A stretch of 64,000 bases of DNA from Streptomyces sp. R21 (GTDB lineage Bacteria; Actinomycetota; Actinomycetes; Streptomycetales; Streptomycetaceae): NCBI RefSeq assembly GCF_041051975.1, contig NZ_CP163435.1, positions 1,736,001 through 1,800,000 of the forward strand, in the 5' to 3' direction. Made by a program: the position numbers and the translations under genes. Shown in pieces: positions 32,118-53,988 of this stretch. The notes under the pieces were generated by a model, which saw only the letters and a list, made by a program, of their open reading frames with translations, made no database searches and was not told where the DNA came from. Within the stretch, counting starts at the first letter, position 1, and every line of letters starts with the position of its first letter.

Positions 32118-34196
32118 TCAGGAGGTCGTCCTCCTGTTGTCGTGGCGGAGCCGGAGTTCCGCGCCGCGTCGACGGACGAGGTGCGGGGTGGCGAGTTCGT
32201 GGGCGATCAGCCGGGCGGCGAGTTCGCCGCCGTCGCGGTCGCCCCCGGCGACGAGGGCGCGCATCGAGTCGACGAGCTTTTCGGCGGTCGGCTGGTCCAA
32301 CGCGTCCTCGTGCTGCAGGAGTTGGGCCACCTCCGGGTCGAGCGGTCGATGCTCCGCCGGCTCGTGGGCCTCGGGGTCCTCAAGGACTCGGCGCAGCGGC
32401 TCGGCGGCCTCGTCCGGGAGCAGCTCGGCGTAGGCGGACAGGTCGGCGTCGGCGGCCGTCAGCAGCAGGTGCTTGGCGATCAACGCGGCTTCCGGGAACG
32501 GGGTACGGACGGCCAGCGGTGCGAGCAGCCGTGGCGGCAGGCCGAACACGCACCCGGCGTGCAGCAGCACCTGGCGGACGCGCTCGGTGTGCGGGGAGTC
32601 GGGCAGTACGGCGGCGGTCCGCTCCAGGAATCGGGTGAGGACTGCGTCGGGACCGGCCGTGCCGAGCGCCTCACCCCGGCGGAAGTACCGCGCCATGTAC
32701 CCCTTCCACCAGGCGAGTTGCACCTCGTACAGGCTGGCCACGGCCTCTTCGTACGCCCGCTCGGCGAGCAGCCCCTCCTCGGTGAGAGCGCGCAGCGCGG
32801 GCACCAGGTCGCGGTAGATGAGCCGCATCCAGGTGTGCGGGGAGCGCTGGATGCCCCAGCAGTCCTCGTTCGCGTGGTCGCCGAGGAGTTCGGCGAGGCC
32901 GAGTTCACCGGCGACGAACTCGGAGCGGATGCCCGAGGCGCCGGCCTCGAAGCGGTAGAGGTGCTCGGAGGACAACGGTGGCAGCGGGACGGGGAGTTCG
33001 TGGTCGAGGAATCGTTCCAGCTCTGCGTAGCTGCGGTCCAGTCCCTCGTGGTCGAGGGTGAGCCGGGGGTGGAGGGGGTTGGCGAAGCGGGTCTTGATCT
33101 TGGCGATCTCCTCCGACAGGGCCTGGTAGAGGAAGATCTTGTCGAAGCGGTAGCTGAATGACAGGCCGATGTAGGGGAAGACCGTGCAGCTGCGGCACTC
33201 CGATCGGTGCCCGACCTCCTCGTCGCGGACCCGGACGAACTCCTCGTCCTGGACCAGCTCGGTGAGACTGCGGTCCCATTCCAGCGAGTTGTCGAAAGCG
33301 TGGTAGCAGGGCAGCACCAGGCGCCCGTCCGGGCCGATCGTGAGGATCCGCTTGTTCGCGAAGCAGTCGGTCGGGGCGGTGGGGTCGATGCCCTCCATGT
33401 ACTTGCGGAAGTGCAGGTTGATCAGCGCGAACGGCTGGTAGACGAGAGCGCGCAGCTCGGCCGCCACGGCGCCGCCGGTCGCATCCGACTCGTCCAGCCG
33501 GTGGGCGCGTTCGGCCCCACCGCCGGTGACCGGTGTGCCGTTGTGCTCGATCAGCTTGAGTTTGCGGGCCGTCCGGTTGACGTCCCGGACGGTGTCCTGC
33601 TCGTCGAAGTACTCGAACATGCCGGAGAAGTAGATGGTGATCCGGTTCTCGTGCGCGAAGCGCAGCAGATCCGGCACCTCGTCCACGTTCTCCCGGGTGA
33701 CCACGCAGATGAGCTTGAGGTTGCCGGATCCGGTAGCGGCGATACGGCGGATGACGTCCAGGGCCCGGTCCAGCGTGGGGACTCCGCGGATCTCCCGGTA
33801 GCGGTCGGGCCTGAGGGTGTCCAGGGACACGTTCATGGTGTCGACGTACGGCACGATCGCGTCGATGTGCTTGGCGAACCGGATGCCGTTGCTGGTGATC
33901 TCCACGGCCATGCCGAGGGACTTGGCGTACTGGACTATCCCGTCGATGTGCGGGTGCAGGACCGGTTCGCCGCCGGTGAAGTCCACGTAGCGCACACCGA
34001 GGGTGTACATCTCGTCCAGGATCTGGCGGGCCCGCTCCAGGGTGAGTTCCTCGTAGCCCTTGAACTTGTCGTCCTGCCAGACGTTGCAGTAGCCGCAGAG
34101 CGAATTGCAGCGGAAGGTGATGTAGAACCGGGCCGACCGCAGGAGGCCCTGTGCGGTCGCCGTCGTGCTGGTGGTGAGTGTGGTGCTCGCTGTCAC
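32118..34196 (-). CDS. Radical SAM protein with SPASM/twitch-like cysteines and a long C-terminal domain
   Basis: About 692 aa. The [4Fe-4S]-SAM site is C30-x3-C34-x2-C37, followed by FTGGEP at 73-78. A second cysteine set (C278, C297, C334, C337) lies where SPASM/twitch auxiliary clusters are found. Residues 360-692 are a helical domain I do not recognise. GTG 34196 is preferred (GGAGAGGGA 4 nt upstream); ATG 34211 is five codons earlier. It is last in the cyclitol-type operon. Twitch/SPASM radical SAM enzymes act on aminocyclitols (BtrN dehydrogenase, NeoN epimerase), so a redox or epimerase step on a cyclitol or sugar is plausible but unproven. Confidence 0.85.
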   Translation of the reverse strand: MTASTTLTTSTTATAQGLLRSARFYITFRCNSLCGYCNVWQDDKFKGYEELTLERARQILDEMYTLGVRYVDFTGGEPVLHPHIDGIVQYAKSLGMAVEITSNGIRFAKHIDAIVPYVDTMNVSLDTLRPDRYREIRGVPTLDRALDVIRRIAATGSGNLKLICVVTRENVDEVPDLLRFAHENRITIYFSGMFEYFDEQDTVRDVNRTARKLKLIEHNGTPVTGGGAERAHRLDESDATGGAVAAELRALVYQPFALINLHFRKYMEGIDPTAPTDCFANKRILTIGPDGRLVLPCYHAFDNSLEWDRSLTELVQDEEFVRVRDEEVGHRSECRSCTVFPYIGLSFSYRFDKIFLYQALSEEIAKIKTRFANPLHPRLTLDHEGLDRSYAELERFLDHELPVPLPPLSSEHLYRFEAGASGIRSEFVAGELGLAELLGDHANEDCWGIQRSPHTWMRLIYRDLVPALRALTEEGLLAERAYEEAVASLYEVQLAWWKGYMARYFRRGEALGTAGPDAVLTRFLERTAAVLPDSPHTERVRQVLLHAGCVFGLPPRLLAPLAVRTPFPEAALIAKHLLLTAADADLSAYAELLPDEAAEPLRRVLEDPEAHEPAEHRPLDPEVAQLLQHEDALDQPTAEKLVDSMRALVAGGDRDGGELAARLIAHELATPHLVRRRGAELRLRHDNRRTTS

Positions 34197-34228
34197 TCTG
34201 TCCCTCTCCATCCGGATGGCATGGTGGA

Positions 34229-34235
34229 CTGCAAG
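34229..34235. promoter_or_regulatory. Single CTTGCAG half-site upstream of the radical SAM gene
   Basis: CTGCAAG (CTTGCAG on the minus strand) lies in the 93-nt gap between the aldo/keto reductase and radical SAM genes, the same heptamer as in the two larger palindromes of this cluster. A single 7-mer is weak evidence, since several are expected by chance in 64 kb. Confidence 0.25.
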
Positions 34236-34289
34236 TTCTCTGATTTCAGGTTTTCTTGATGAATCGTCAGGAGACGTGGGGGTGAGGGA

Positions 34290-35234
34290 TCAGGGCAGCG
34301 GGGTGCCACGTGCGGTGATCCACAGCTCGTACCACTCCTCGTGGGAGAGGCCGACGTCGCGCGCCACGGCGTCGCGGCAGGCACGGATCCGCTCGGGACG
34401 GCCGGTGCCGATGACGGGGACGATGCCGGCGGGGTGCCGCTGGAGCCACCACAGCAGGATCGTCTCCGGCGTCGTCCCCTTGCGCTCCGCGAGATCCTTG
34501 ACCAGTTGCCCGGTCGGGGACGGTTCGGCCCCGGTGTAGCGGCCGCGGGCCAGCGGCCCCCACGCCTGCAGTTCGATGCCGTTCGTCGTGCAGTACTCGA
34601 GCGTCCCGTGCGGGAAGCCATGGGCAGCCGCGGCCGGGGTGTTGACCACGACAGCGGACTCGACCCAGTCGCGTGAACCCAGGCTCATCTCCAGCTGGTT
34701 GGCGACCAGCGGGAAATCCAGACCGTCTTGCAGGTGGGCGATCTGCGCCGCGCTCATGTTGGACACCCCGAACCGTCGCACCAGCCCCTGGCCGTGCAAC
34801 GAGGTGAGGGCTTTGGCGATCTCCTCCGGGGCGGCCAGCGGGTCCGGACGGTGCAGCAGCAGCACGTCGATGACGTCCGTGCGCAGTCGGGTCAGGCTCT
34901 CCTCGACGCGCCGGGTGACGGTCGACGCCCGCAGGTCGTACAGGCCGATCCGGTCGCCGTCCGGGAGCCGGATGCCGCACTTGGTCTGCAGGACGATCCG
35001 CTCCCGCAGCTCCGGTGCCCTGGCCAGCACCTCGCCGAAGACCGCCTCGGACTTGCCGTGCCGGTAGATGTCGCCGTGGTCGAAGGCCGTGATGCCGACG
35101 GCCAGCACGGCGTCGATCGCGGCCTCGGCGTGGTCGATGTCCGCGGCTGTGTACGGTGTGCGGTCCCAGTTTCCGCCGAGTGCCATGCAGCCGTACATCA
35201 CGCGACCGCTGCCGGTGGCGAGATCTCGCCCCAT
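34290..35234 (-). CDS. Aldo/keto reductase
   Basis: A 314-aa (beta/alpha)8 NADPH-dependent reductase. The catalytic tetrad region has FDHGDIYRHGKSE (Asp/Tyr), LQTKCGI (Lys) and LLLHRPDPL (His), and NQLEMSLGSRD matches the nicotinamide-stacking region. Its nearest look is the YdhF subgroup. Start ATG 35234 with GGAGG upstream. It lies between the GMC oxidoreductase and radical SAM genes and probably reduces a keto intermediate of the same pathway. Confidence 0.9.
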   Translation of the reverse strand: MGRDLATGSGRVMYGCMALGGNWDRTPYTAADIDHAEAAIDAVLAVGITAFDHGDIYRHGKSEAVFGEVLARAPELRERIVLQTKCGIRLPDGDRIGLYDLRASTVTRRVEESLTRLRTDVIDVLLLHRPDPLAAPEEIAKALTSLHGQGLVRRFGVSNMSAAQIAHLQDGLDFPLVANQLEMSLGSRDWVESAVVVNTPAAAAHGFPHGTLEYCTTNGIELQAWGPLARGRYTGAEPSPTGQLVKDLAERKGTTPETILLWWLQRHPAGIVPVIGTGRPERIRACRDAVARDVGLSHEEWYELWITARGTPLP

Positions 35235-35287: not shown

Positions 35288-36781
35288 TCAGTCCCGCAAC
35301 GCCTCCGCAAGGAGTTCGGCGGCGGCGAGGACCGGCAGCTGGGTGTTCGCCGCCGGAACGGTGGGCAGCACGGAGGCGTCGACGACCCGCAGGTTCGCCA
35401 CCCCCCGTACCCGGGCCTCCCCGTCGACGACGGCGAGGGGGTCGTCGTCCGGCCCCATGGCGCAGGTGCCCACGGGATGCCAGTACGTGCCCAGGCGGGA
35501 GCGGAGTTCCTCGTCCGACAGCTCGTGCGCGGCACGCCCCGGCCCATGAGCGGCCAGCGACTTCAGCGCGGCCGACGAAGCGAGCCGTTCGACGATCTCC
35601 AGACCTGACCGCAGTACGGCGATGTCGCGGCCGCCCGGGTCGGACAGGAACCCGGGGTCGATCTCCGGCGCCTCGGCGGGGTCGGCGGAACGCAGCCGGA
35701 CCCGGCCGCGCGAGGCGGGTTTCATGAGGAAGGCGGAGATGCCCGCCTCGTACTCCCCCGGCGGCAGCGAGCCGAACAGCGGATCTCCCGCCGAGGGCAG
35801 GATGTGCAGGTCCCAGGAGCCTTCGGGGCACAGCTCGCTGGCGGCCCTGATCAGCATCCGGCTGACGTAGAGCTCGCCCGACGCCTCCTGGGCGGCCAGC
35901 GCCGCGTTCAGTTCCGCCGTCGGCGCGAGGGGGACGAAGACGCCCGGCTGGTCGGTGAGGTTCGCGCCGACGCCGGGCAGGTCGACCTCGGGCCGGATGC
36001 CGGTCTTCTGGAGCTGGTCCGCCGGTCCGATGCCGCTGCGCAGGAGCAGGGCGGGTGAGCCGAAGGCGCCGCAGGCCACCAGGTAGGTGTCGGCGGTGAG
36101 AACCTCGCGCCGTGCGTCGACCTGGACGTCGACGCTCTGGACACGCCCGGCACGGACCGTCAGCCGGTCGACCGAAGTACCGCTGAGAATCGTCAGGTTG
36201 GGGCGCGAACGCGCTGCGTCGAGGTAGGCGAAGGCGGCGTTCCAGCGGACGCCGTCGAGGGCGTTGATCAGCGGGGTGCCGTATCCGGGTGCGCCCGGGG
36301 CGGCCATGTCCGCTTCCTCGTAACCGAGTTCCCGTGCCGCTGTCAGGGCAGCTCGGCTCCAGGGCGAGAACTCGCGCTCCGGCACCGTGCGCAGCCGCAT
36401 CTGTTCGACCGCCCTCAGCCGGTGGCGCTCCATGGCCGCGGCCGACCAGCGCGGCCCGCCCGCGCGCACCCATTCCTCGTGGTCGGCCTCCGAACCCCAG
36501 GTGTTCCAGCAGCCGTTGATACAGGAGGAACCGCCGAGGACGCGGGCGCGGATGCGGTGCATGGGGGCGTGACGCTCCCACACGTCGTCGCGCGGCAGGG
36601 CATGGGCGTCGCGCACCTTCGCGGGCCACTCCTGCCACCGCGCCCCGTAGTCGGGCCCGGCCTCCACCAGGCACACGGACCGTCCGGGGTCCTCGCTCAG
36701 GCGGGCGGCCAGTACACAGCCGGCCACGCCGCCGCCGAGGACGACGACGTCGTAACCGGCCGCTTGGGCGGGGGACTTCAC
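35288..36781 (-). CDS. GMC family FAD oxidoreductase (choline dehydrogenase-like)
   Basis: A 497-aa flavoenzyme with the dinucleotide motif VVVLGGGVAG at about 11-20. GMC signatures are RVLGGSSCINGCWNTWGS and GAFGSPALLLRSGIGP. The active-site His lies in YWHPVGTCAMG and the second in ANTQLPVLAAAE, where the usual His/Asn is replaced by Gln/Leu context. The GTG start overlaps the PfkB stop (GTGA). It oxidises an alcohol to aldehyde or ketone. It may make the keto group that the class III aminotransferase or aldo/keto reductase then acts on (inference). Confidence 0.9.
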   Translation of the reverse strand: MKSPAQAAGYDVVVLGGGVAGCVLAARLSEDPGRSVCLVEAGPDYGARWQEWPAKVRDAHALPRDDVWERHAPMHRIRARVLGGSSCINGCWNTWGSEADHEEWVRAGGPRWSAAAMERHRLRAVEQMRLRTVPEREFSPWSRAALTAARELGYEEADMAAPGAPGYGTPLINALDGVRWNAAFAYLDAARSRPNLTILSGTSVDRLTVRAGRVQSVDVQVDARREVLTADTYLVACGAFGSPALLLRSGIGPADQLQKTGIRPEVDLPGVGANLTDQPGVFVPLAPTAELNAALAAQEASGELYVSRMLIRAASELCPEGSWDLHILPSAGDPLFGSLPPGEYEAGISAFLMKPASRGRVRLRSADPAEAPEIDPGFLSDPGGRDIAVLRSGLEIVERLASSAALKSLAAHGPGRAAHELSDEELRSRLGTYWHPVGTCAMGPDDDPLAVVDGEARVRGVANLRVVDASVLPTVPAANTQLPVLAAAELLAEALRD

Positions 36782-37725
36782 CCGGCCTCCTTGGCCGCCG
36801 CGATGGACGCAGGTTCCGCGGAGTCCAACTCGGCCACCCGGGCGAGGAGTTCGGTGCGGCTGATGGCGTCGGCCCGTGTCGACGGCACCGTGCAGGCATG
36901 GGCGCCGGCTACTGCGCCGTACAGGGCGCACCGGTGCGGCGGCTCGCCGTTCAGTCGGCCGAAGAGGAAGCCGGCGGCGAAGGCGTCCCCGGCGCCGTTG
37001 GAGTCCACCACCGGCGCGTGCGGCACGACAGCCGGAATGTGGGTCACCTCGTCGTCCACGAGCAGATACGCGCCGTCGGCTCCCGCCGTGGCGACGACCA
37101 CCTCGGCGCGCCCCCGCTCGGTAATCCGGCGCATGGTGCGCTCCGGGTCGGCCAGGGCGGTGGTGGACACGAAGACGAGGTCCGCCTCGTAGGCGAACGC
37201 CTCGTGGTACGGGTTGCTGCCGTCCCAGTTGTGCAGGTCGGTCGAGACGGTGACCCCGGCCGCGCGCAGGATGGGCAGGGCGAAGGCGCACGGGTAGGTG
37301 ATGGAGACGTGGGCGTGGCGGGTCGCCTCCGCCAGGGCCCGGACCGTGGCCTCGGGCAGCCGGTCCGTCTCCTGGAAGCGACTGTCGTCGTACAGGGACA
37401 GCCGCCGTCCCTCGGGGTCGACGAGGTTGACCGCGCGCTTGGTGCCGCCGGGCAGCGGGATGTCGGTGAGGGGGATGCCCCGGGCGCGGTGCAGTTCCCG
37501 GATCAGATCGCCCTCGTGGTCGTCGCCGATCATGTCGAGGTGATGGGTGCGCAGACCGAGCTCGCTCACGCCGAGCGCGACGAAGTCTCCCGTCTGCCCC
37601 GCCCGCATCTCGATCCCGGGCCGGATCATGTAGCTGTCGGCGTACGGAAGGGGCAGCTCGGGGACGTACACGATGGTGTCGACGCCCGCGCCTCCCAGGA
37701 CGAGGACATCGGTCTCGGTACTCAT
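36778..37725 (-). CDS. PfkB family carbohydrate kinase (AcbK-like candidate)
   Basis: A 315-aa ribokinase-fold enzyme. The N-terminal substrate-binding GGAGVDTIVYVPELP and the C-terminal anion-hole/catalytic motif SNGAGDAFAAGFLFG are intact. Start ATG 37725 with GGAGGA 6 nt upstream. In the acarbose cluster the PfkB enzyme AcbK phosphorylates acarbose at O-7 for self-protection and re-import; an equivalent role is my inference from context. It heads a four-gene sub-operon (PfkB, GMC, aldo/keto reductase, radical SAM) behind the inverted repeat at 37924-37958. Confidence 0.9.
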   Translation of the reverse strand: MSTETDVLVLGGAGVDTIVYVPELPLPYADSYMIRPGIEMRAGQTGDFVALGVSELGLRTHHLDMIGDDHEGDLIRELHRARGIPLTDIPLPGGTKRAVNLVDPEGRRLSLYDDSRFQETDRLPEATVRALAEATRHAHVSITYPCAFALPILRAAGVTVSTDLHNWDGSNPYHEAFAYEADLVFVSTTALADPERTMRRITERGRAEVVVATAGADGAYLLVDDEVTHIPAVVPHAPVVDSNGAGDAFAAGFLFGRLNGEPPHRCALYGAVAGAHACTVPSTRADAISRTELLARVAELDSAEPASIAAAKEAG

Positions 37726-37875: not shown

Positions 37876-40056
37876 TCAACTTCGCCTGTCGGAAGGTGAG
37901 TCAAGCAGGCCACTCCCATGGTGGCAAGGTCTTGCAGAATCTTCCTGCAAGACCTTGCGAACGCTTGATCGGGAGGACAACTCGCGGTAGACCTCGGCGA
38001 CGGCCCGGGGCCCCGGATGGGTGCCAAGGTCCTCCAGCGTGACCGTCCGGCCGGCCGGGTCGGCCACCGGCAGCTGCCAGTTGGGGTATTCGTCGGCCGT
38101 ACCGGGGAGGTTCTGCGGGCGCAGGTCCCCCACGGTGTCGGGAAGCCAGACGCCGAGCAGTTTCGCCGGGGTGCGGGCGAGGAAGCGGTGCAGCGCCAAG
38201 GTGTCGTGGGTCGGCGCCGCAAGGGGTTCTCCCCGGCCCTCGGGGTCCGGACCGAGCACCCCGACCCGGCTCAACTCGGCCTTCCAGCCCGCGACTTCGG
38301 CCGCGGCCGAGGTCACGGCGTCCCCCAACGGCTCGGCCAGCAGACCCAACCGGTCGTGCAGGCGGACGTGCGCGCCATCCCACCAGGCCGCCGTACTGGG
38401 CAGATCGTGGGTGGTGAGGGTGGCCAGGCAGTCACCGCGCCACCCTTCCGGGGGCAGCGGGCCCGAGCGCTGCTCCGACCCGCCGAGGTACTCGAAACGG
38501 AGCACGGAGGTGCCGAGGATGCCGCGGTCCGCCAACTCCTCGCGGACGCCGGGCTCGACGGTGCCGAGGTCCTCGCCGATCACCATGCTGCCGGCCCGGT
38601 GCGCCTCCAGGGCGAGCACGCCGAGCAGCGCCTCGTGGTCGTAGCGCACGTATGCTCCCTCGCCGGGCGGGGCTCCCGCGGGCACCCACCAGAGGCGGAA
38701 GAGACCCGCGATGTGGTCGAGCCGCAGCGCCCCCGAGCGGCGCAGGGTGCCGCGCAGCACCTCCGCGAAGGGGGCGTACCCGGCCTCGGCGAGGGTGTCC
38801 GGGCGCCAGGGCGGCAACCCCCAGTCCTGTCCGTGCGGGTTGAAATCGTCGGGCGGGCAGCCGACCGTCACGTCCTCGGCGAGGAACCGCTGGAAACTCC
38901 AGGCGTCCGCGCCCTCCGGGTCGACGCCGACGGCGAGGTCGTGCATCAGGCCGATCGCCATGCCCGCGTCGGTCGCGGCGCGTTGCGCCCCGGCGAGCTG
39001 CTCGTCGGACAGCCAGGCGAGGCGGCGGTGGAACTCGATCCGGTCCGCCCGCTCGGCCCGTGCGGCGGCGATTCCGCTCCCCTCCGGGCTGCGCAGGGCG
39101 GCGGGCCAGGAACGCCAGTGGGAGCCGTGGACCTCGGCGAGCGCGCACCACAGCGCGTAGTCGGCGAGGCCCGGACCCTCGGCGTCGACGTATCGCTGAT
39201 AGTCCGCCCGCCGTGCCGGGTTCAGCGGTACACGGTGCACCAACTCCAGGGCGCGCAGCTTGAGTTCTCGTACGGCCCTGCGGTCGATCAGCCCGCCCGC
39301 GAGGACGCCGTCGCGCAGTCCGCGGGCCTCGGCGGCCAGCCGTGCGGCGGTGTCCCGGTCGGCCGGGGTCAGCGCGGCGAACTCGGGGATCGCCTCGACT
39401 CGCAGGTTCATCGGGTCGGGGTGGCGGCGGCTGCTCGGCCGGTACGGCGACGGGTCGGTCAGTGGCCCGGGGACGTACGCGTGCAACGGGTTGAGCTGGA
39501 GGAAGTCGGCCCCGAGGCCACCGGCCCAGCCCGCCAGGTCGGCGAGGTCCCCGAGATCCCCCATCCCCCAGGAGCGGCCGGAGAGCACCGAGTAGAGCTG
39601 GACGAGGAAGCCCCAGCTCCGGTGCGCGGGACCGGCCAGCCGCTCGGGAGCGATCAGCAGCGGAACGTTCTCGGCGTGTGTGCCGCGTGCGGCGTGCAGG
39701 GTGTGACGGCCGACGGGGAAATCGGCCAGTTCCTTGCCGAGCGAGCCGACGCGGTGGGAGCGGCCGTCCTCGGTCTCGACCCACAGCTCGGCGCCGGACG
39801 GAGCAGCCAGGTGCGCGGGGGGACGTCCGGCGCGCAGCACCACGCTCGGCGGCAGCAGGCGCGTGGCGAGTCGCTGCCGACGCTCGGCCAGCGCGGCCCG
39901 GACGCCGCCGGGCGTGCCCGCGTCGACGCCGAGCGCGCCGAGCACCGCCCGCAGGGTCTCCGGCGAGGCCTCGATCCGGCGGCCGAGGTCGGTGGTGTAG
40001 TGCGTGGCGACACCGTGCAGGCGTGCCAGTTCCTGGAGTTCGCGGGTGGATGGCAT
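37876..40056 (-). CDS. malQ: 4-alpha-glucanotransferase (amylomaltase, GH77)
   Basis: A 726-aa GH77 enzyme that transfers maltodextrin units. The catalytic nucleophile is Asp in RLDHIAGLFRLWWVP, the acid/base Glu in IGEDLGTVEPGV, and the transition-state Asp in TTHDLPSTAAWW. An N-terminal 130-residue extension of the actinobacterial type is present. The conserved part ends near EVYRELSS, and the last 30 codons overlap the inverted repeat at 37924-37958, so the C-terminus may be recent. Its place inside the cluster mirrors AcbQ of the acarbose cluster and suggests maltooligosaccharide acceptors or recycling. Confidence 0.92.
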   Translation of the reverse strand: MPSTRELQELARLHGVATHYTTDLGRRIEASPETLRAVLGALGVDAGTPGGVRAALAERRQRLATRLLPPSVVLRAGRPPAHLAAPSGAELWVETEDGRSHRVGSLGKELADFPVGRHTLHAARGTHAENVPLLIAPERLAGPAHRSWGFLVQLYSVLSGRSWGMGDLGDLADLAGWAGGLGADFLQLNPLHAYVPGPLTDPSPYRPSSRRHPDPMNLRVEAIPEFAALTPADRDTAARLAAEARGLRDGVLAGGLIDRRAVRELKLRALELVHRVPLNPARRADYQRYVDAEGPGLADYALWCALAEVHGSHWRSWPAALRSPEGSGIAAARAERADRIEFHRRLAWLSDEQLAGAQRAATDAGMAIGLMHDLAVGVDPEGADAWSFQRFLAEDVTVGCPPDDFNPHGQDWGLPPWRPDTLAEAGYAPFAEVLRGTLRRSGALRLDHIAGLFRLWWVPAGAPPGEGAYVRYDHEALLGVLALEAHRAGSMVIGEDLGTVEPGVREELADRGILGTSVLRFEYLGGSEQRSGPLPPEGWRGDCLATLTTHDLPSTAAWWDGAHVRLHDRLGLLAEPLGDAVTSAAAEVAGWKAELSRVGVLGPDPEGRGEPLAAPTHDTLALHRFLARTPAKLLGVWLPDTVGDLRPQNLPGTADEYPNWQLPVADPAGRTVTLEDLGTHPGPRAVAEVYRELSSRSSVRKVLQEDSARPCHHGSGLLDSPSDRRS
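37924..37958. promoter_or_regulatory. 14-bp inverted repeat with TCTTGCAGAA core, candidate MalR-type operator
   Basis: Arms GCAAGGTCTTGCAG (37924-37937) and CTGCAAGACCTTGC (37945-37958) pair perfectly around AATCTTC, about 200 nt before the PfkB start. The 10-mer TCTTGCAGAA recurs in inverted orientation before the cyclase gene (54097-54106). CTTGCAG/CTTGCAA half-sites resemble, from memory, the sites of MalR/Reg1-like LacI regulators at Streptomyces amylase and malE promoters. A terminator is the alternative, though it overlaps the malQ coding end and no T-run follows. Confidence 0.6.
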
Positions 40057-46687: not shown

Positions 46688-48141
46688 CGGGTGGCCGAGG
46701 CGCCGCCGGCCTCCACGGCGTGCCGCAGGTTGATCGCCGCGTGATAGGCGCGGTCGTGGGCGTACGCGTAGTCGAGTTCGTGGACGAGCCGGCGCAGCCG
46801 GAAGAGCCGCCAGGCGGGGTGATCGGACAGCAACTGGTCCGCGTCCACGAGCAGTTCGCCGACGCGGGCCGCCCACAGGCCGGCGGCGGCGCGCAGCCGG
46901 TTCAGCTCGGCGAGGCGCCCGGGCGTCCAGCCGGGGGTGTCGGGCGCCGCGCCCGCGGCCAGCAGGAGCGCCGTCCTGCAGGTGTCGTCGGGATCCATGC
47001 CCAGGTGCTCCGCGGCCTGGTCGGAGAACTCGTCGGCGGTGAAGATCTCCAGACCGCGGCGGAGCGCGGCCAGGTCCTGCCAGGGGGACTGGGCGGTGGC
47101 CGGGTCGGCCGGGTCCGCGAGCGGAGTGGACAGGTCGATGACGCACAACTCCCAGGCGCCGTCGGCCCGTTCATGACGCAGCAGATGGGAGAGGTGCAGG
47201 TCCCCGTGGCAGGGTCCGGTGGGCCAGGGGCGGGGCGGCAGTGCGGCGATCAGTGCCCGTTCGCGTTCGATCCCGGCGAGCGCGGCCTGCCGTACGGGGG
47301 TGGGGAAGCGGGAGTCGGCGAGGATGAGCGGACGCAGCTGCGCGATGCGTTCGGCGGCCTCGGCGAGGAAGCCCTCGGCGGGGAACTCCGGGTGCGGGCC
47401 GAGCCGTTCGGCCAGGTCCTGGTGGAAGCCGTGCAGGAAGCGGCCGGTCTCGCGCAGGGGTGCGGTCAGCTCGCGCTGGGATTCCTTGACGGCGGCCTCG
47501 GGGTCGGCGCCCGCGTGCAGCAGCGGCCACAGGGCCCGGATGCCCGCGCGCAGCGGGACGTTGAGGCCCTCGCCGTCGGCGTAGCGGTAGAGGACGCCGA
47601 GCGGTTCGCGCTGTCCGGTGGTGGTGTCCACGTAGGTGTAGTCGCCGACCGGCTGCTGGGTCCGGCCGCCGTCCGCCATCAGCCGCAGCAGTTCGGGTTC
47701 GCGGGTGCCGACGCCGATCCGCCGGTAGGTCTTGTGTGCGTGCGGGGTGCCCCCGAGGTCCAGCAGGGACAGGGAGTTGGAGCACCAGCCGGGGTCGAAG
47801 GGCAGCGGGCCCCGGTACTCGGCGGGATCGCCGCGGAACTCGATGAGGTGGCCGCGCCGGGTGGGTAGGCGCAGTCCCTCGCGCAGGGCCTCGACGATCA
47901 GCTGGTCGTACGCGGAGCTGCCGTCGGCGCCCCGGCCCGGGTCGGCGTCCGGTACCGGCACGAACCAGCGTACGGAGGTGTCCTCGGCCGAGGCGACGAT
48001 CAGCAGCCGGACGGAACCGAGAGCGGCCTCGTCGAGAAGTTCGAAGCGTCCGGTGCGGCGGCCGGTCTCGTCCATCCAGGGGGCCTCGCGCAGGAAGGCG
48101 GCCGTGGCGGACGGCGGGCTGCCGAGCAGCAGGGTGTCCAA
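46684..48141 (-). CDS. Maltokinase/aminoglycoside-phosphotransferase-like kinase (AcbU-like candidate)
   Basis: A 485-aa protein with the kinase-like Brenner motif GPCHGDLHLSHLL near 315-327 and VIDLSTPLADP as the DFG-like metal site. HGDLHL followed by His/Gln in place of Asn is typical of Mak1 maltokinases. An N-terminal alpha/beta cap domain precedes it. The size fits AcbU, the 1-kinase of the acarbose pathway (recalled, not checked). It lies 2 nt after the permease gene's start region, within the operon. It could supply a 1-phosphate for the GlgC-like enzyme. Confidence 0.82.
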   Translation of the reverse strand: MDTLLLGSPPSATAAFLREAPWMDETGRRTGRFELLDEAALGSVRLLIVASAEDTSVRWFVPVPDADPGRGADGSSAYDQLIVEALREGLRLPTRRGHLIEFRGDPAEYRGPLPFDPGWCSNSLSLLDLGGTPHAHKTYRRIGVGTREPELLRLMADGGRTQQPVGDYTYVDTTTGQREPLGVLYRYADGEGLNVPLRAGIRALWPLLHAGADPEAAVKESQRELTAPLRETGRFLHGFHQDLAERLGPHPEFPAEGFLAEAAERIAQLRPLILADSRFPTPVRQAALAGIERERALIAALPPRPWPTGPCHGDLHLSHLLRHERADGAWELCVIDLSTPLADPADPATAQSPWQDLAALRRGLEIFTADEFSDQAAEHLGMDPDDTCRTALLLAAGAAPDTPGWTPGRLAELNRLRAAAGLWAARVGELLVDADQLLSDHPAWRLFRLRRLVHELDYAYAHDRAYHAAINLRHAVEAGGASATR

Positions 48142-48143
48142 GT

Positions 48144-48950
48144 TCAGCTCCCGGTCATTTCATAGCGGTCGACGCCCCGGTGCCAGACGACGAGGGCCAG
48201 CGTCACCAGGGCGACGGTCACCACGAACAGCCACGGGAGCATGCCGGTGTGTCCGAAGAGCAGGTAGGACGCGGGGACGTAGGCCGTGAAGGCGTACGGC
48301 AGCAGCCAGGTCAGCAGCCACCGCAGGGACGGGTGGTACAGGTCGAGGGGGTAGCCGGAGAAGTCGCCGAGCTGGTTGGCCGCGTACAGGGCCGGGAAGC
48401 TGCTGGTGGTCCAGAAGGCCAGCGCGGCGAAGACGGTCTTGATCGAGGCGAGGACGAGCGTGCCGCACAGGACCAGCACGGGGACGAGCAGGAGTTGGCC
48501 GATGCTCAGGTCCAGTGCCAGATGCGCGGCGGCGTACCAGGTGAGGGCCACTCCGGTGAGCAGTTCGCCGAAGCCGTCCGGGTAGAGGAAGCGCTCGGAG
48601 AGCAGGGAGAACAGCGGGTGGACCGGCCGGATGAGGTAGCGGAAGAACTCGCCGTTGTGCACCAGCTTCCGGGCGAGGATCCACAACTGGTCGGTGAACA
48701 GCCGGTCCAGGCCGCGCGGGAGCAGCGAGAATCCGAGCAGGAAGAGCACCTGGTGGTAGTTCCAGCCCGCGATCACGGGCACCTGCCGGAAGACCATGTC
48801 GATCACGGCGACCTGGCAGACGACCCGCAGCAGCAGTCCGCCGGCGCCGAGCAGGAAATCCATCCGGTACTCGGTCAGCCGGTGCAGGCTGACGCCGCTC
48901 AGGAACCAGGTGAGCCTGGCGTAACGGGCCGCGGTGGCAAGGAAGTTCAT
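48144..48950 (-). CDS. ABC-2 family permease (exporter subunit 2)
   Basis: A 268-aa membrane protein with about six hydrophobic segments (DFLLGAGGLLLRVVCQVAV; YHQVLFLLGFSLLPRG; LLLVPVLVLCGTLVLAS). The FFRYLIRPVHPLFSLLSERF stretch is typical of the ABC-2 family (PF06182-like) permeases encoded in pairs with an ATPase. It overlaps the sister permease by 4 nt. With its partners it resembles AcbWXY, the presumed acarbose exporter. Confidence 0.88.
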   Translation of the reverse strand: MNFLATAARYARLTWFLSGVSLHRLTEYRMDFLLGAGGLLLRVVCQVAVIDMVFRQVPVIAGWNYHQVLFLLGFSLLPRGLDRLFTDQLWILARKLVHNGEFFRYLIRPVHPLFSLLSERFLYPDGFGELLTGVALTWYAAAHLALDLSIGQLLLVPVLVLCGTLVLASIKTVFAALAFWTTSSFPALYAANQLGDFSGYPLDLYHPSLRWLLTWLLPYAFTAYVPASYLLFGHTGMLPWLFVVTVALVTLALVVWHRGVDRYEMTGS

Positions 48951-49762
48951 CCGCCGAGCACCTCCACCCGTCGGACGGCACCACGCCAGGCGAGCGCGGC
49001 GAGCCCGGTCAGGACTGCGGCCCACAGGGCCTGCACGGCCAGGATTCCGGCGGCGCCGGCCGCTCCGTCGTACCGGCCGAGCAGCAGCCGCAACGGGCCG
49101 TCGACCATGCCCTGGAAGGGCAGGACGTGGGCGACGGCGGCCAGCGGGCCCGGCATCAGGGCGAGCGGGACGACCTGCCCGGCGAAGAACGCGACGACGC
49201 TGTCCTTGACGATCCGGACACCCCAGATGTTGGTCGTCACGAAGCCCGCCAGGCCGACCAGCAGGTTCACGCCGAAGCCGATCACCAGCGACAGCCCGGC
49301 CGACAGCACGAACAGGACGCAGCCCGTCCAGGAAGGTGCGGTCAGCGGCAGCAGCAGCGCGTATAGGAGCACCACCGGTACGGCGACCAGTCCGGCGTTG
49401 CAGAGCGAGACCGGCAGACCCGCGGCGAACCGGGCGAGCGGATAGCTGACCGGCCGCAGCAGCGAGACGGCGATGTCCCCGCGCTGCACCTCCCCGGCCA
49501 CCTCCTCGTCCACCCGGCTGGCCTGCAGCAGACCGAGGACCTGGGCGAGCAGGACGTACGTGGTCAGCCCGGGCAGGTCGTAGCCGCCGGGCAAGCCGCC
49601 CGCACGGCCCGCGTACACGGCGCGCCAGAGGAACACCTGCACCCCCACCGCGGTCGTCGCGGTGACGGCGTTGATCAGGAACGTCGACCGGGACTGGAGC
49701 AGGCTCTGCAGGCTGGAGGCCGCGAACGGGGTGTAGCGGCGCAGAGTGGCAGCGCCCGTCAT
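48947..49762 (-). CDS. ABC-2 family permease (exporter subunit 1)
   Basis: A 271-aa six-helix permease with QRGDIAVSLLRPVSYPLARFAAG, the RP-x-S loop of this family, and hydrophobic segments through the C-terminus. The ATG overlaps the ATPase stop (ATGA). Membrane export component acting as a heterodimer with the product of the following gene. Confidence 0.88.
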   Translation of the reverse strand: MTGAATLRRYTPFAASSLQSLLQSRSTFLINAVTATTAVGVQVFLWRAVYAGRAGGLPGGYDLPGLTTYVLLAQVLGLLQASRVDEEVAGEVQRGDIAVSLLRPVSYPLARFAAGLPVSLCNAGLVAVPVVLLYALLLPLTAPSWTGCVLFVLSAGLSLVIGFGVNLLVGLAGFVTTNIWGVRIVKDSVVAFFAGQVVPLALMPGPLAAVAHVLPFQGMVDGPLRLLLGRYDGAAGAAGILAVQALWAAVLTGLAALAWRGAVRRVEVLGG

Positions 49763-50796
49763 ACGGCGGACTCCTGGCTCTCGGGCTCGGTGCGTGCCGT
49801 GGGGGTCGCGGCGGTGTAGATCCGGCGGAGCACCATCTCGAGGTCCGGCTCCGGGGCGACGCAGTCGACGAGGTCGAAGTGGTCGAGCAGCAGGCTCATC
49901 ACCTGTCGGGCGGACCAACGGCGCACCGGGTACTCGACCTTGATCCGGCCGCCTTCGACCAGGGTCGCTGACGCTCCGTCAAGTCGCGCTTCCACCAAGG
50001 CGATCGCCTGTTCGACAGGTGGCCCGTCCTGGTACTCGAAGACCACGGCCCGGGTGTCGGCGGTGCGCAGCAGCTCGTGCATGGTGCTCTGGTGCACCAC
50101 CTCACCGCGGTTGACCACCAGCACCTGGTCGCAGATGGCGGTGATGTCGCCGATGTCATGGCTGGTGAGCAGCACGGTCGTGCCGAGCTCGGCGTTGACG
50201 TGGTTGACGAGCCCCCGGACGGCCTCCTTCAGTACCAGGTCCAGGCCGACGGTGGGCTCGTCCAGGAACACCACCGCCGGGTCGTGCAGCAGGCTCGCGG
50301 CGACCTCGGCGCGCATCCGCTGGCCGAGGCTCAACTGCCGTACGGGGGTGTTTCCGAGGGCGTCGAGGTCGAGCAGGTCGCGGTAGAGCGCCATGTTGCG
50401 GCGGTAGACCGCGTCGGGGATGTCGTGGATACGGCGCAGGATGCGGAAGGAGTCCGGCACCGGCAGGTCCCACCACAGCTGGCTGCGCTGGCCGAAGACG
50501 ACACCGATGTTGGCGGCGTTGCGCCGCCGCTCCCGGTACGGCTCCAGGCCGTTGACCAGACAGCGCCCGGAGGTCGGGCTCATGATGCCGGTGAGCAGCT
50601 TGACGGTGGTGGACTTCCCGGCGCCGTTCGCGCCGATGTAGGCGGCCTTCGTGCCCGCCGGGATCTCGAAGGAGACCCCGGACACCGCACGCACCACGCG
50701 GTACTCCCGGTTGAACAGCGTGCGCAGGCTGCCGAGCAGGCCGGGCCCGCGCTCGTAGACCTTGAACTCCTTGATCAGGTTCTCGGCGACGATCAC
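49759..50796 (-). CDS. ABC transporter ATPase of the cluster exporter (AcbW-like)
   Basis: A 345-aa ATPase. Walker A GANGAGKST lies in AAYIGANGAGKSTTVKLL, the Q-loop is GVVFGQRSQLWWDLP, the signature LSLGQRMRAEVA and Walker B VVFLDEPTVGLD. The C-terminal 90 residues are an extension usual for daunorubicin/lantibiotic-type exporters. GTG 50796 shares GTGA with the aminotransferase stop. Three consecutive exporter genes inside the operon indicate that the product is secreted. Confidence 0.9.
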   Translation of the reverse strand: MIVAENLIKEFKVYERGPGLLGSLRTLFNREYRVVRAVSGVSFEIPAGTKAAYIGANGAGKSTTVKLLTGIMSPTSGRCLVNGLEPYRERRRNAANIGVVFGQRSQLWWDLPVPDSFRILRRIHDIPDAVYRRNMALYRDLLDLDALGNTPVRQLSLGQRMRAEVAASLLHDPAVVFLDEPTVGLDLVLKEAVRGLVNHVNAELGTTVLLTSHDIGDITAICDQVLVVNRGEVVHQSTMHELLRTADTRAVVFEYQDGPPVEQAIALVEARLDGASATLVEGGRIKVEYPVRRWSARQVMSLLLDHFDLVDCVAPEPDLEMVLRRIYTAATPTARTEPESQESAV

Positions 50797-52115
50797 CGGA
50801 CGGCCTCCGTGACACCCTCGTCGGCCCCGGTGACACGCTCCAGGGCACGGCCGAGCAGGGTGAGGCCCTCCTCCAGAAGGGCCCGGTCGACGGTGAACGG
50901 CGGGGCCAGCCGGATGATGTGGCCGCCGATCGAAGTCCGCAGCCCGAGGTCGAGTGCGGCCAGATAGACCGCTCGGGCGATGTCGGGAGCGGGTTCGCGG
51001 GTCGTGCGGCTGCGGACGAACTCCAGCCCGTGCAGCAGACCGACACCGCGCACGTCGCCCAACACCTCGTAGCGGGCGTGCAGTTCGGCCAGCCGCTCGT
51101 CCATCAGCTCGCCCAGCCTTCGCACCTGCTCGATCAGGGTGTCCCGGGCCACCACTTCCAGCGTGGCCCGGGCCGCGGCGATACCCAGCGGGTTGTTGGA
51201 GTACGTGGAGGCGGTGGAGCCGGCGCGGGCCGCGTCCGGATGACGCAGCACCGAGGAGCGCCCGGCCAGCGCGGCGAACGGAAAGCCTGAGGCCATGCCC
51301 TTGGAGAGGGCCACCAGATCCGGTTCGATGCCGAACCGCTCGCTGGCGAGGAACTCTCCCGTGCGGCCGCCACCGGTGAGCACCTCGTCGGCGACCAGCA
51401 GCACACCGTTCTCGCGGCAGCTGTCGGAGATCTGTTCCCAGTACCCGGGCGGCGGCACGATGACTCCGGCCGCGCCCAGGACGGGTTCGAAGACCAGCGC
51501 CGACACCTGCGGCTTCTCGGTGATGTGCTTGCGGACCAGGGAGGCACAGCGCACCCCGCAGGAGGGGTACTGGAGTTCGAGCGGGCAGCGGTAGCAGTAC
51601 GGGGAGTAGCCGAGGATGCTGTTGCCGGCGAAGGCCTGGTTCCCGATGTCCCAGTGCACCAGCATCCTGGCGCCCTGGGTCTTGCCGTGGAAGCCGTGGC
51701 GCAGTGCGCCGATCCGGTTGCGGCCCGGCTCCGCGACGGCCTGTACAGCGCGCAGCGCGGCCTCGACGACCTCGGCGCCGGTGGAGAAGAAAGCGTAGGT
51801 GTCGAGCTGTTCGGGCAGCAGCGCGGCGAGTTGATCGCACAGCGCGGCGCGGTCCGCGGTGGCGAAGTCATGGACGTTCCACAGCCGTCCGGCCTGCTCG
51901 GTCAGCGCGGCGACGACCTCGGGGTGGCAGTGGCCGAGCGACTGGGTGAGGGTGCCGGCCGCGAGGTCGATGTACTGGTTGCCGTCGAGGTCGGTGAGCA
52001 CCGCTCCCCTGCCCTCGACGAAGACCCGACGCCCGAGCGCGGACTCCTCGGAGGCGCCCGGGGCCAGATGCGCGGACTCCTGCGCCAGGAGTTCGAGCTG
52101 ACGGGGGCCGGTCAT
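50793..52115 (-). CDS. Class III PLP-dependent aminotransferase
   Basis: A 440-aa aminotransferase. The PLP Lys is K272 (LVALSKGMASG) and the PLP-ring Asp is D243 (LVADEVLTGGGRTGEF), with FFSTGAEVVEAALRA as the phosphate-site helix. An insertion at 172-191 carries four Cys (C174, C177, C186, C190) that could bind a metal. In acarbose AcbV aminates a 4-keto sugar; in this cluster the acceptor may be a cyclitol ketone instead. ATGA overlap with the cupin gene. Confidence 0.9.
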   Translation of the reverse strand: MTGPRQLELLAQESAHLAPGASEESALGRRVFVEGRGAVLTDLDGNQYIDLAAGTLTQSLGHCHPEVVAALTEQAGRLWNVHDFATADRAALCDQLAALLPEQLDTYAFFSTGAEVVEAALRAVQAVAEPGRNRIGALRHGFHGKTQGARMLVHWDIGNQAFAGNSILGYSPYCYRCPLELQYPSCGVRCASLVRKHITEKPQVSALVFEPVLGAAGVIVPPPGYWEQISDSCRENGVLLVADEVLTGGGRTGEFLASERFGIEPDLVALSKGMASGFPFAALAGRSSVLRHPDAARAGSTASTYSNNPLGIAAARATLEVVARDTLIEQVRRLGELMDERLAELHARYEVLGDVRGVGLLHGLEFVRSRTTREPAPDIARAVYLAALDLGLRTSIGGHIIRLAPPFTVDRALLEEGLTLLGRALERVTGADEGVTEAVR

Positions 52116-52582
52116 CGGCTGCCGTCCAGGGGGCCCGGACCGGCGGCGAGGGGGCTGTCGCCGTCACCGTCGCCGAGTGGTCCCTCACCGAACGGGCCGA
52201 TCTCGAAGACGAGCAGCCTGAGTTCGGCGTCCGAGTCGTTGACGAGGCCGTGCTCGCCGTACGGGCGGTTCGGTACGACGTCCCCGTCGCGGACCTCGAA
52301 CTCCTCGCCGTCCACGGTCATGCGGCCCCGGCCGGAGAGGATCACATAGGTCTCCTGGTCGTCGCCGTGCCGGTGCAGTCCGATGGAGGTGCACGGGGGC
52401 AGCACCACCAGGTCGATGAAGGCGATGCCGGCGGGGGCGTCCTCGCGACGGTAGGCCCGGTGGGCGAGGATCGTGCCTCTCCCGCCGTGGTCGGCGGTCA
52501 CCTCGCGCAGCAGCCCCTCGTGCAGATTGGTGATCCGGGTGCGGGTGGGGCCCTGAGGTGCGGGCGGTGGTACGGGGCTCAT
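52112..52582 (-). CDS. Cupin domain protein
   Basis: A 156-aa single-domain cupin. Motif 1 is IGLHRHGDDQETYVILSGRG (two His and the Glu of G(X)5HXH...E) and motif 2 PYGEHGLVNDSD. The C-terminal 20 residues are Asp/Gly-rich and disordered-looking. It may be a metal-dependent isomerase or epimerase in the cyclitol pathway, where AcbO/ValD do the 2-epimerisation. Start ATG 52582 with AGGAG at 10 nt. A 179-nt gap separates it from the cyclase gene, unusually long for this operon. Confidence 0.85.
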   Translation of the reverse strand: MSPVPPPAPQGPTRTRITNLHEGLLREVTADHGGRGTILAHRAYRREDAPAGIAFIDLVVLPPCTSIGLHRHGDDQETYVILSGRGRMTVDGEEFEVRDGDVVPNRPYGEHGLVNDSDAELRLLVFEIGPFGEGPLGDGDGDSPLAAGPGPLDGSR

Positions 52583-52761
52583 CAGGATGCGGCTCCTGTC
52601 GCGATGTGCGGGATCGGTCCGGGGCGGCGGCGGTTCGGGAAGGCGGCGGTTGGGCGCGCGGGCGACGGCACACCGGTGGCGGTGCCGGTGAACGCCGATG
52701 TCGGGCAACACCAGTTCTGTACAGGGCAGTTGGGTGTACGTGAGCCGGGCGGGCGGTCGGG

Positions 52762-53988
52762 TCAGCCCGCGGCCACCAGCGGGTCCGGGAATCCGGCGGC
52801 GTGGGCGGCCAGGGCCGCCAGGGCTTCTTCCAGGGCGGCGGTGGGGATGTCGTCCAGGTCGTCCAGGAAGACGGCGGAGCCGATCCCGTCGGGCACCACG
52901 AGATGCAGGCGGCGACCGCGCCGCTCCCAGGAGGCCTTGAGTGCCCGTTCCATCAGCGCCGGCGTGCAGGTGCGCGGGTCGTGGACCGGGAGGCCGAGCG
53001 CGGTGATCAGCTGAACGATGCGTGCGCAGTCCTCGGCACCGATCAGGCCGAGCACACGGGCGAGTTGGGTGGAGATCGCCATGTCGATGGCCACCGATTC
53101 GCCGTGCGCGATCCGGTACTCACTGGCCGTCTCGATCACCGGGCCGAAGGTGTGCCCGAAGTCCACCAGCCGGGCCAGGTCGTGTTCGCGGAGGTTCGGG
53201 CAGAGCTCCTCGAGCATCAGCTCCATGGCGGTGCGCAGTACGTAGTCCTCGACGCCGCGTCGCCCGGCGCCTGCGGCGAGCAGCCAGGAAGGGGTGGAGG
53301 TGGTGCGCTGGAAGACCTCGGGACACTCCTCCAACGCGCGGAAGAGCCGCGCGTCCTTGATGACGGCCATCTTGGCTATCTCACCGAGCCCGCACCGTAT
53401 CTGACGGGTCGGCAGGGTTCGCAGGAAGGCCGGGTCGTTGATCGAGGCAAAGGCGGGGTGGTACGCCCCGAGCATGTTCTTGGTACCGAGGGCGTTGACG
53501 CCGGTCTTCACGCCGACGCCGACGTCGACCTGGCCGACCAGTGTGGTGTTGACCTTGATGTAGCGCACGCCCCGGCAGTAGATCGCCGCGGCGAAGCCGA
53601 CCAGATCGCAGGTGACGCCGCCGCCGACGGCGAGCATCACCCCTCGCCGGTCCAGCCCCGAGAGCTTGGCCTGGGCGCAGATCTCCTCGACCGAGTCCAT
53701 GGTTTTGCGGTCCTCACCGCCGGCGAGGGTCACCACGCTCCAACTGCCCGGTGGGAGCCTGGTGTTCAGGTAGTGCCGCAGGCGTTCCCCGTGGAGCCGG
53801 TCGACGGTGGGGCCGAGGAAGGCGACGACACGGCGGCCCTCGCAGTACCCGGCGAGCAGGGGGTTGTCCGGTGCGAAGACGTCCTCAGTGATGTCGACGC
53901 GATACGAAGTCCCTTCCGGTGCTTGAAGCGTGAAGCCGCTGTCGTCGCCTCGAACTCCCGGATCGACAACAGATGTCTGCGCCGTCAC
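52762..53988 (-). CDS. Sugar phosphate cyclase, 2-epi-5-epi-valiolone synthase-like
   Basis: A 408-aa member of the dehydroquinate synthase superfamily. The NAD-binding GGGV is at 122-125. Probable zinc ligands are E203 (GLGEIAK), H279 and H295. EELCPNLREHDLARLVDFGHTFGP has the sedoheptulose-7-phosphate cyclase form: Pro283 stands where dehydroquinate synthases have the second His of HTFGH. KTGVN at 161-165 also fits. EEVS is most likely from context; EVS or DDGS cannot be excluded. GTG 53988 is chosen because GAGGAG lies 4 nt upstream. It is the first gene of the cluster and the committed step. Confidence 0.88.
   Translation of the reverse strand: MTAQTSVVDPGVRGDDSGFTLQAPEGTSYRVDITEDVFAPDNPLLAGYCEGRRVVAFLGPTVDRLHGERLRHYLNTRLPPGSWSVVTLAGGEDRKTMDSVEEICAQAKLSGLDRRGVMLAVGGGVTCDLVGFAAAIYCRGVRYIKVNTTLVGQVDVGVGVKTGVNALGTKNMLGAYHPAFASINDPAFLRTLPTRQIRCGLGEIAKMAVIKDARLFRALEECPEVFQRTTSTPSWLLAAGAGRRGVEDYVLRTAMELMLEELCPNLREHDLARLVDFGHTFGPVIETASEYRIAHGESVAIDMAISTQLARVLGLIGAEDCARIVQLITALGLPVHDPRTCTPALMERALKASWERRGRRLHLVVPDGIGSAVFLDDLDDIPTAALEEALAALAAHAAGFPDPLVAAG

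Follow-up and report, generated by a model that had tools for sequence, protein, structure and literature searches.

How does a gene cluster of the acarbose family provide the amino group to which its C7 cyclitol is coupled, when orthologs of three of the enzymes that make and attach the amino sugar are missing? The question is raised by a block of 18 minus-strand genes, running from a sugar phosphate cyclase through a radical S-adenosylmethionine (SAM) protein, at positions 32118-53988 of a 64,000-nucleotide stretch of the 10.0-Mb genome of Streptomyces sp. R21 (G000:C1:1736001-1800000; the whole stretch is called the window below). Sequence comparisons firmly place this block in the acarbose/acarviostatin family, as a variant with one AcbS-type glycosyltransferase (GT), and orthologs of AcbA, AcbB and AcbI are missing from it. 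As a tentative answer, quite possibly right though short of probable, we suggest that the block makes and exports an adiposin-like pseudo-oligosaccharide, and that its amino acceptor would arise by radical SAM oxidation followed by AcbV-type transamination. The product would then be an unfamiliar inhibitor of starch-digesting enzymes.

The single glycosyltransferase and the missing genes

In the acarbose pathway, as outlined in PMC8234114, AcbA, AcbB and AcbV yield dTDP-4-amino-4,6-dideoxyglucose, the sugar of which is placed onto maltose by AcbI before AcbS adds valienol (PMC9200736). The same paper reports that purified AcbS did not use dTDP-4-amino-4,6-dideoxyglucose, required an amino group on the oligosaccharide, and was incapable of the AcbI step. 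An AcbS-type GT without AcbI therefore needs another source of the amino acceptor.

The sole GT of the block is GT5-like, and in a tree made up of the window enzyme, 39 of the 120 listed relatives and 27 locus-derived rows, the window clade (20 rows, support 100) fell inside the AcbS-type enzymes and was set with the GT of Actinoplanes SE50 (98), while the AcbI-type GTs formed a separate clade (99). The Actinoplanes protein P0111, recorded as a glycosyl transferase only, is regarded as AcbS by inference, and P0124, called AcbS by its source, was omitted from the tree. We predict from this placement that the window enzyme is an AcbS-type pseudoglycosyltransferase. A second, AcbI-like GT was not found at E <= 1e-60 anywhere in eight of the nine genomes with a block of the window type, the window genome included; in the ninth, Streptomyces hygroscopicus NBRC 3401 (G003), a match of 47% lies on a contig other than that of the block. 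This second AcbS/AcbI-like gene is located about 3 kb from a dTDP-glucose 4,6-dehydratase gene (62%), in the region C1:550425-556831.

AcbB was searched for with a G036 protein (TIGR01181, 417 bits). A copy at 74-100% was present in all seven genomes searched that carry either both GT types (two-GT clusters) or a partial acarviostatin (sct)-type cluster, although in G081 and G102 it sits on separate small contigs, and copies at 71-74% were present in G294, G298 and G378. No AcbB ortholog was found in the window, and the only match in its genome at 1e-50 (65%, C1:1985257) lies about 195 kb away. For AcbA, the window-type regions, over the stretches read, gave weak matches only (<=44 bits), the best in the window being 44 bits with 32% identity over 106 residues. 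Furthermore, the AcbI-type GT and a HAD domain are encoded together in a single open frame (1033-1300 residues) in nine of nine two-GT clusters (G036, G077, G081, G164, G181, G294, G298, G378 and L048), and SctI, listed with 1027 amino acids (aa) in the table of PMC8234114, is probably the same fusion. In the window type, HAD is a free-standing gene, which looks as though its GT portion has been lost. Since both Actinoplanes, as published, and the sct-type lineages have AcbI, its loss in the window clade is the simplest reading of these sequences.

The 18 genes are as follows.

52762..53988, minus strand: sugar phosphate cyclase, sedoheptulose-7-phosphate-cyclase type, SctC-like, 408 aa (PF01761, 120 bits, and PF24621; best solved relative 4p53, taken to be ValA, 243 bits; tree)
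52112..52711, minus strand: cupin, 199 aa, putative SctJ counterpart by its place beside the cyclase (PF07883; one protein with the cyclase in P0232 and P0234)
50793..52115, minus strand: class III aminotransferase, AcbV/SctV-like, 440 aa (PF00202, 288 bits; 76-79% to two-GT-type aminotransferases)
49759..50796, minus strand: ATP-binding cassette (ABC) exporter ATPase, AcbW/SctW-like, 345 aa (PF00005; drrA-like, 177 bits, below cut-off; start GTG 50796, 4-nt overlap)
48947..49762, minus strand: ABC-2 permease 1, AcbX-like, 271 aa (PF06182, 53 bits)
48144..48950, minus strand: ABC-2 permease 2, AcbY-like, 268 aa (PF06182, 156 bits)
46684..48141, minus strand: APH-fold kinase, putative AcbU-like cyclitol 1-kinase by position, 485 aa (PF01636, 26 bits; 40-45% to the two-GT-type gene)
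44564..46687, minus strand: GT5-like glycosyltransferase, the single AcbS-type, predicted pseudoglycosyltransferase, 707 aa (PF08323, PF13692; AcbS-type clade in tree)
43465..44571, minus strand: GlgC-like nucleotidyltransferase, AcbR-like, 368 aa (PF00483, 128 bits; glgC, 202 bits, below cut-off)
42444..43472, minus strand: ROK kinase, AcbM/SctM-like, 342 aa (PF00480, 89 bits)
41557..42447, minus strand: RmlD-like short-chain dehydrogenase/reductase (SDR), SctO counterpart, 296 aa (PF04321, 117 bits; 59% to a 324-aa S. coelicoflavus gene)
40985..41560, minus strand: Nudix hydrolase, 191 aa (PF00293, 35 bits; seen only in clusters of the window type)
40164..40988, minus strand: HAD-IIB phosphatase, stand-alone, putative AcbJ role, 274 aa (PF08282, 152 bits; TIGR00099, 141 bits, above cut-off)
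37876..40056, minus strand: 4-alpha-glucanotransferase GH77, AcbQ-like, 726 aa, start uncertain (PF02446, 343 bits)
36778..37725, minus strand: PfkB kinase, putative AcbK-like role, 315 aa (PF00294, 89 bits)
35288..36781, minus strand: GMC flavin oxidoreductase, 497 aa (PF05199, 123 bits; PF00732, 112 bits; MftG model, 267 bits, below cut-off)
34290..35234, minus strand: aldo/keto reductase (AKR), 314 aa (PF00248, 165 bits)
32118..34211, minus strand: radical SAM protein, 697 aa, start possibly 34196 (PF04055, 92 bits; alignment; AF2 model; structural matches)

The initial annotation, made from the sequence alone, had counted seventeen genes, mostly overlapping; all of the domains it named were recovered on the minus strand within the block by the Pfam search, in an order that recurs in relatives, and 11 of the 17 junctions indeed overlap, by exactly 4 or 8 nt with the starts as chosen, the other six being gaps of 2, 50, 53, 78, 107 and 150 nt. 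The block is a real, conserved and widely shared variant of the acarbose family, known in nine genomes including that of the window. Streptomyces sp. NBC_00287 (G159) has 18 of 18 genes in the same order at 72-90% identity, and S. hygroscopicus NBRC 3401 has 17 in the same order, with GH77 absent. The others are S. griseofuscus (G199), Kitasatospora sp. GP82 (G200), S. murinus (G201), S. malaysiense (G202), Streptomyces sp. NRRL S-118 (G203) and S. cupreus (G206); five genomes besides G159 and G003 keep the order over the stretches read. The S. murinus draft is fragmented, with the cyclase through the ROK gene on one 12-kb contig and the GMC and radical SAM genes on another, and genome-wide matches were obtained for its radical SAM, GMC, GT and cyclase genes. 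The aminotransferase match of S. cupreus is broken by about 10 kb, and this split (L050 about 12300-21200, L088 about 1-5700) includes a second DHQS-like cyclase (33-36%, L050 17306-18547; DHQS, dehydroquinate synthase).

None of the 13 flanking window genes tested belongs to the block in the regions of its relatives, their matches being scattered and weak (<=37% identity), and the cyclase and the radical SAM gene were therefore taken as the block edges. GH77 was present in G000, G159, G200 and G206 and was not found between HAD and PfkB in G003, G199, G202 and G203, these eight being the window-type genomes in which that place was read. In the genus sample, 25 of 199 genomes matched the cyclase at 1e-60; copies of at least 63% occur in nine, the window genome among them, and the other matches are <=45%.

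Predicted cyclitol donor and relation to published clusters

The cyclase was compared with solved relatives, and scored 243 bits with 4p53 (named 'Cyclase' in the PDB), 169 with 5tpr (named 3-dehydroquinate synthase there and presumably the DDGS reference), 147 with the best DHQS and 93 with 2-deoxy-scyllo-inosose synthase. In a tree of 47 rows (the window cyclase as P0198, 21 other listed proteins, 21 loci and four solved chains), it grouped with the cyclases of S. coelicoflavus, S. albofaciens and the trestatin species S. dimorphogenes (100/99), and this acarviostatin/trestatin clade was sister to ValA plus DDGS at 98/96 with DHQS outside, long branches being flagged. The window enzyme thus groups with the sedoheptulose 7-phosphate cyclases and not with the dehydroquinate synthases, as the initial annotation had supposed, and by score it is far closer to ValA than to 2-deoxy-scyllo-inosose synthase; neither of the two groupings that would have contradicted that annotation was observed. 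Since ValA and DDGS jointly form the sister group, the branching does not single out 2-epi-5-epi-valiolone as the product.

The cyclase and the cupin are found as one 547-aa protein in S. europaeiscabiei and Streptomyces sp. NPDC047880 (P0232, P0234). These fusions cover nearly all of the cyclase plus the cupin domain and support consecutive steps, and the cupin is likely to be a cyclitol epimerase by analogy. In the review PMC8234114, SctJ (138 aa) is the proposed 2-epimerase, and SctJ, SctM and SctO are cited as proposed enzymes of another path to valienol 7-phosphate; they correspond to the cupin, ROK and RmlD-like genes of the window. By this analogy, the cyclase, cupin, ROK, RmlD-like SDR, APH-like kinase, HAD and GlgC-like enzymes would convert sedoheptulose 7-phosphate into an NDP-valienol-type donor.

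Of the 18 genes, 14 have counterparts in the published acarbose (acb) or acarviostatin (sct) clusters. The early assignment to the acarbose family, as a C7-cyclitol cluster that encodes an exporter of its own, was right. The S. coelicoflavus locus L048, with open reading frames of 393, 350, 324 and 112 aa equal in length to SctC, SctM, SctO and Scim in the table of PMC8234114, was taken as the sct cluster; it ends inside the APH-like gene, and SctV-SctY were taken from that table. The sct cluster and the window share the cyclase, aminotransferase, three ABC genes, APH-like kinase, AcbS-type GT, GlgC-like enzyme, PfkB, GH77, ROK, cupin, RmlD-like and HAD functions, the last in sct being fused to the second GT, whereas the gene order differs and SctA, SctB and SctI are missing from the window block. 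Conversely, the Nudix, GMC, AKR and radical SAM genes are unmatched in L048, and the S. coelicoflavus genome gave no radical SAM match at 1e-20 and no GMC match at E <= 1e-100. SctT (464 aa) was ruled out as a radical SAM protein of sct by this same lack of a match, and the nearest fitting open frame in L048 (530 aa) is read in the opposite direction and corresponds to no gene of the window. The initial annotation had mapped the first thirteen genes onto acarbose/validamycin roles; of these genes, Nudix is without a counterpart in the published sct table.

The comparison with acb of Actinoplanes sp. SE50/110 was made through the gene roles given in PMC9200736 and PMC8234114 rather than by direct sequence comparison. 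Both have the cyclitol donor, AcbS-type coupling, an AcbV-type aminotransferase, an AcbWXY-type exporter and AcbK- and AcbQ-type genes; the window block, however, lacks AcbA, AcbB and AcbI, has no gene assigned to AcbO, AcbL or AcbN, and has Nudix, GMC, AKR and radical SAM as extra genes. The validamycin enzyme VldE is a GT20, unlike the GT of the window. The published gene lists of acb and sct offer no gene-for-gene match, in keeping with the unfamiliar type first claimed, and we consider the missing AcbA, AcbB and AcbI, which the initial annotation had overlooked, more telling than the added genes.

Clusters of the AcbS clade without an AcbI partner were noted in 2022 (PMC9200736), so that the bare fact of AcbI-less clusters is already published. 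They resemble the window in having an AcbS-type GT that lacks an AcbI partner, and this small sub-clade probably includes the window type; the section of that paper on AcbS homologs names no product and no radical SAM, GMC, AKR or Nudix gene. A 2026 genus survey (PMC13240717) probably missed the window type because gacA and gacI were demanded among its core genes. Our literature search found nothing linking radical SAM with acarbose, cyclitol, pseudo-oligosaccharide or valienol, and no paper on an adiposin gene cluster, also under oligostatin, trestatin and S. calvus, of which strain TM-521 produces adiposin.

The radical SAM protein and its companion genes

The radical SAM protein comprises a CxxxCxxC core, a twitch-type four-cysteine domain and a long, mostly helical C-terminal part. 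In an alignment of 32 proteins (P0001 plus 31 of the 76 relatives found), C35, C39, C42, C283, C302 and C342 were invariant and C339 was conserved in at least 90% of the rows; the protein carries the twitch-type pattern, with four cysteines for one putative auxiliary cluster. Compared with BtrN, the twitch radical SAM dehydrogenase of butirosin, it is about 350 residues longer at the C-terminus. Its AF2 model has a pLDDT of 84.8, and in the Foldseek and VIA searches, made with this one model, the structural matches hardly cover the protein past about residues 350-370. Relatives without the long C-terminal part (P0071-P0076, 460-494 aa, 30-35%) were also observed. In a tree built without G120, P0002, P0035, P0046, P0056, P0076 and P0077 and with a faulty translation in the G294 row, of which only the placement of G298/G378 was used, the G298/G378 group (12 rows) was sister to the window group (32 rows). 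The GMC-radical SAM fusion P0046 was rejected as support for a joint function: the GMC part ends at 380 of 497, the radical SAM part covers 56-341 of 697, no AKR lies between, and the fusion is probably a deletion or an assembly join.

The initial annotation had regarded GMC and AKR as foreign to the acarbose family, a view that must be abandoned, since both genes also occur, at 70-74%, in seven two-GT acarviostatin-type clusters (S. albofaciens JCM 4342, G036; S. lucensis, G164; G077, G181, G294, G298 and G378). These clusters keep AcbA, AcbB and the AcbI-type second GT fused to HAD and, unlike the window, lack Nudix; GMC and AKR are therefore ruled out as markers of the window variant. Three of the 21 genomes searched, G081, G102 and S. 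coelicoflavus, gave no GMC match at 1e-100. The window and two-GT clusters share 76-79% identity in the aminotransferase, 60-72% in the exporter and 69-73% in the GlgC-like nucleotidyltransferase, in a comparison that counts some strains twice, with two loci each, and whose cyclase range takes in a 33% paralog of S. cupreus. The Nudix gene was seen only in window-type clusters, and the variant is marked by Nudix together with the 697-aa twitch-type radical SAM gene, the latter also found with four two-GT clusters.

Beyond the window genome, no member of the radical SAM family was found among 394 genomes class-wide. G120 (S. hainanensis; L083, L102, L103), the assembly of which is in small pieces, has a deeply diverged single-GT set (aminotransferase 56%, GT 48%, PfkB 51%, GMC 44%), which suggests that the association of radical SAM, GMC and aminotransferase is old. 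There, a different cyclase (34%) lies directly upstream of the radical SAM gene (44%), on a 4372-base contig that is the same as that of P0056. The arrangement differs again in Hamadaea tsunoensis (L047, L090): PfkB, GMC and AKR point away from the cyclase block, about 15 kb separate the cyclase from a second GT that has a HAD gene and another APH-like kinase in its vicinity, and the genome gave no radical SAM match at 1e-20.

Elsewhere in the window, positions 6231-10711 encode a CDP-alcohol phosphotransferase (PF01066), a glycerol-1-phosphate-dehydrogenase-like iron alcohol dehydrogenase (251 bits, below cut-off), a nucleotidyltransferase and a DUF5941/CDP-alcohol phosphotransferase, adjoined by a GalE-type epimerase at 10044-11876; the run resembles archaeal-type genes for a polar lipid or polymer.

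Proposed source of the amino acceptor

In the proposed route, the non-reducing glucose of a malto-oligosaccharide would be oxidized at its C4 hydroxyl by the radical SAM protein, the AcbV-type aminotransferase, for which a ketone is required, would convert the resulting 4-ketone of the oligosaccharide into an amine, and the AcbS-type enzyme would couple the C7 cyclitol to this amine. The C6 hydroxyl would be retained in the product, as in adiposin, which is described as keeping its 6-hydroxyl (PMC8234114). Within the cell this pseudo-oligosaccharide would be phosphorylated by PfkB, and the ABC exporter would carry it out; GH77, where present, would vary the glucan tail, and GMC and AKR, which also occur in clusters with AcbA, AcbB and AcbI, would act on the cyclitol or the product to alter its oxidation state or stereochemistry. 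The radical SAM protein was chosen as the acceptor oxidase because it is not common to the plain GMC-AKR clusters G036, G077 and G181. That a radical SAM dehydrogenase and the inherited aminotransferase have altogether replaced AcbA, AcbB and AcbI, the end glucose of the oligosaccharide being aminated directly and C7-capped in an adiposin-type pathway, is a doubtful claim.

Several observations weigh against the radical SAM proposal. The initial annotation had set the radical SAM gene outside the acarbose/validamycin roles; the gene also occurs within or next to four two-GT clusters that possess AcbA and AcbB (G164, G294, G298 and G378), with an identity to the window protein of 48% in G164 and 66-68% in the other three (47-67% in a separate tblastn comparison), and therefore is not simply a substitute. 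In G294, G298 and G378, PfkB, GMC, AKR and radical SAM form a separate cassette 7-10 kb from the AcbB gene of a complete two-GT cluster, which weakens a clean replacement of AcbA, AcbB and AcbI by the radical SAM protein, and a placement of this kind looks more like tailoring. At Cys451, 90% or more of the alignment rows agree, and conservation of this type could suit an epimerase. The model was matched better by SuiB, SkfB, MoaA, BlsE, PqqE and DesII than by BtrN, and a fold that the model appears to share with radical SAM enzymes shows no reaction. Furthermore, 4,6-dehydratase copies at 54-68% lie outside the block in eight of the nine window-type genomes; the closest of them, in G203 (61%), is some 16 kb from the cyclase. 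The aminotransferase, close in sequence to the two-GT-type enzyme, could still use a dTDP-4-keto-6-deoxy sugar.

Since the four genes are co-located and the PfkB proteins of G294, G298 and G378 are 75-78% identical to that of the window, against 44-47% for those of six other two-GT clusters, PfkB, GMC, AKR and radical SAM behave as one cassette that includes the likely product kinase, and a product-changing cassette fits at least as well as one that serves the acceptor only. The four would then modify the finished pseudo-oligosaccharide or the cyclitol by oxidation, epimerization or epoxide formation, with PfkB tuned to the modified product and the amine coming from another route. We consider this possible though unlikely. 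It accords with their joint occurrence beside complete two-GT clusters and with the median identities of GMC and AKR, nearly as high between cluster types (71-72%) as within the window type (74-76%), but it leaves the amine unexplained in clusters that lack AcbA, AcbB and AcbI and keep the aminotransferase and the AcbS-type GT; S. coelicoflavus, without GMC or radical SAM at the thresholds given above, moreover has no need of the cassette for the core.

The amine might instead come from the cyclitol itself, the aminotransferase aminating a cyclitol ketone and the AcbS-type enzyme joining two C7 cyclitols into a validoxylamine-like product that needs no sugar nucleotide. VldE of validamycin, a single pseudoglycosyltransferase, is reported to take an aminocyclitol phosphate acceptor (PMC9200736), and GH77 is missing from four of the eight genomes in which its place was read; yet the window GT is AcbS-type and not of the VldE type, the window keeps GH77 and PfkB, and its aminotransferase is as close as noted above to those of clusters with AcbA and AcbB, which makes such a product improbable. 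Alternatively, housekeeping RmlA and RmlB could feed the well-conserved aminotransferase, with a bifunctional GT standing in for AcbI, to give an ordinary acarviosin-type product. The dehydratases outside the block would allow this, but S. murinus gave none at 1e-50 and only 166 bits against a family cut-off of 365 in its fragmented draft, eight of the nine genomes have no second GT at 1e-60, and the failure of purified AcbS at the AcbI step speaks against a bifunctional enzyme, so that we hold this to be very improbable.

Acarbose is a drug, and little is understood of how its family varies the amino-sugar part in nature. That a variant is conserved with a single AcbS-type enzyme and without AcbA, AcbB and AcbI orthologs in the block suggests that the acceptor can be made in another way. 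If the radical SAM proposal is true, it would represent a short route from plain malto-oligosaccharides to amino-oligosaccharides, and would provide the first gene-level lead for adiposin-type compounds.

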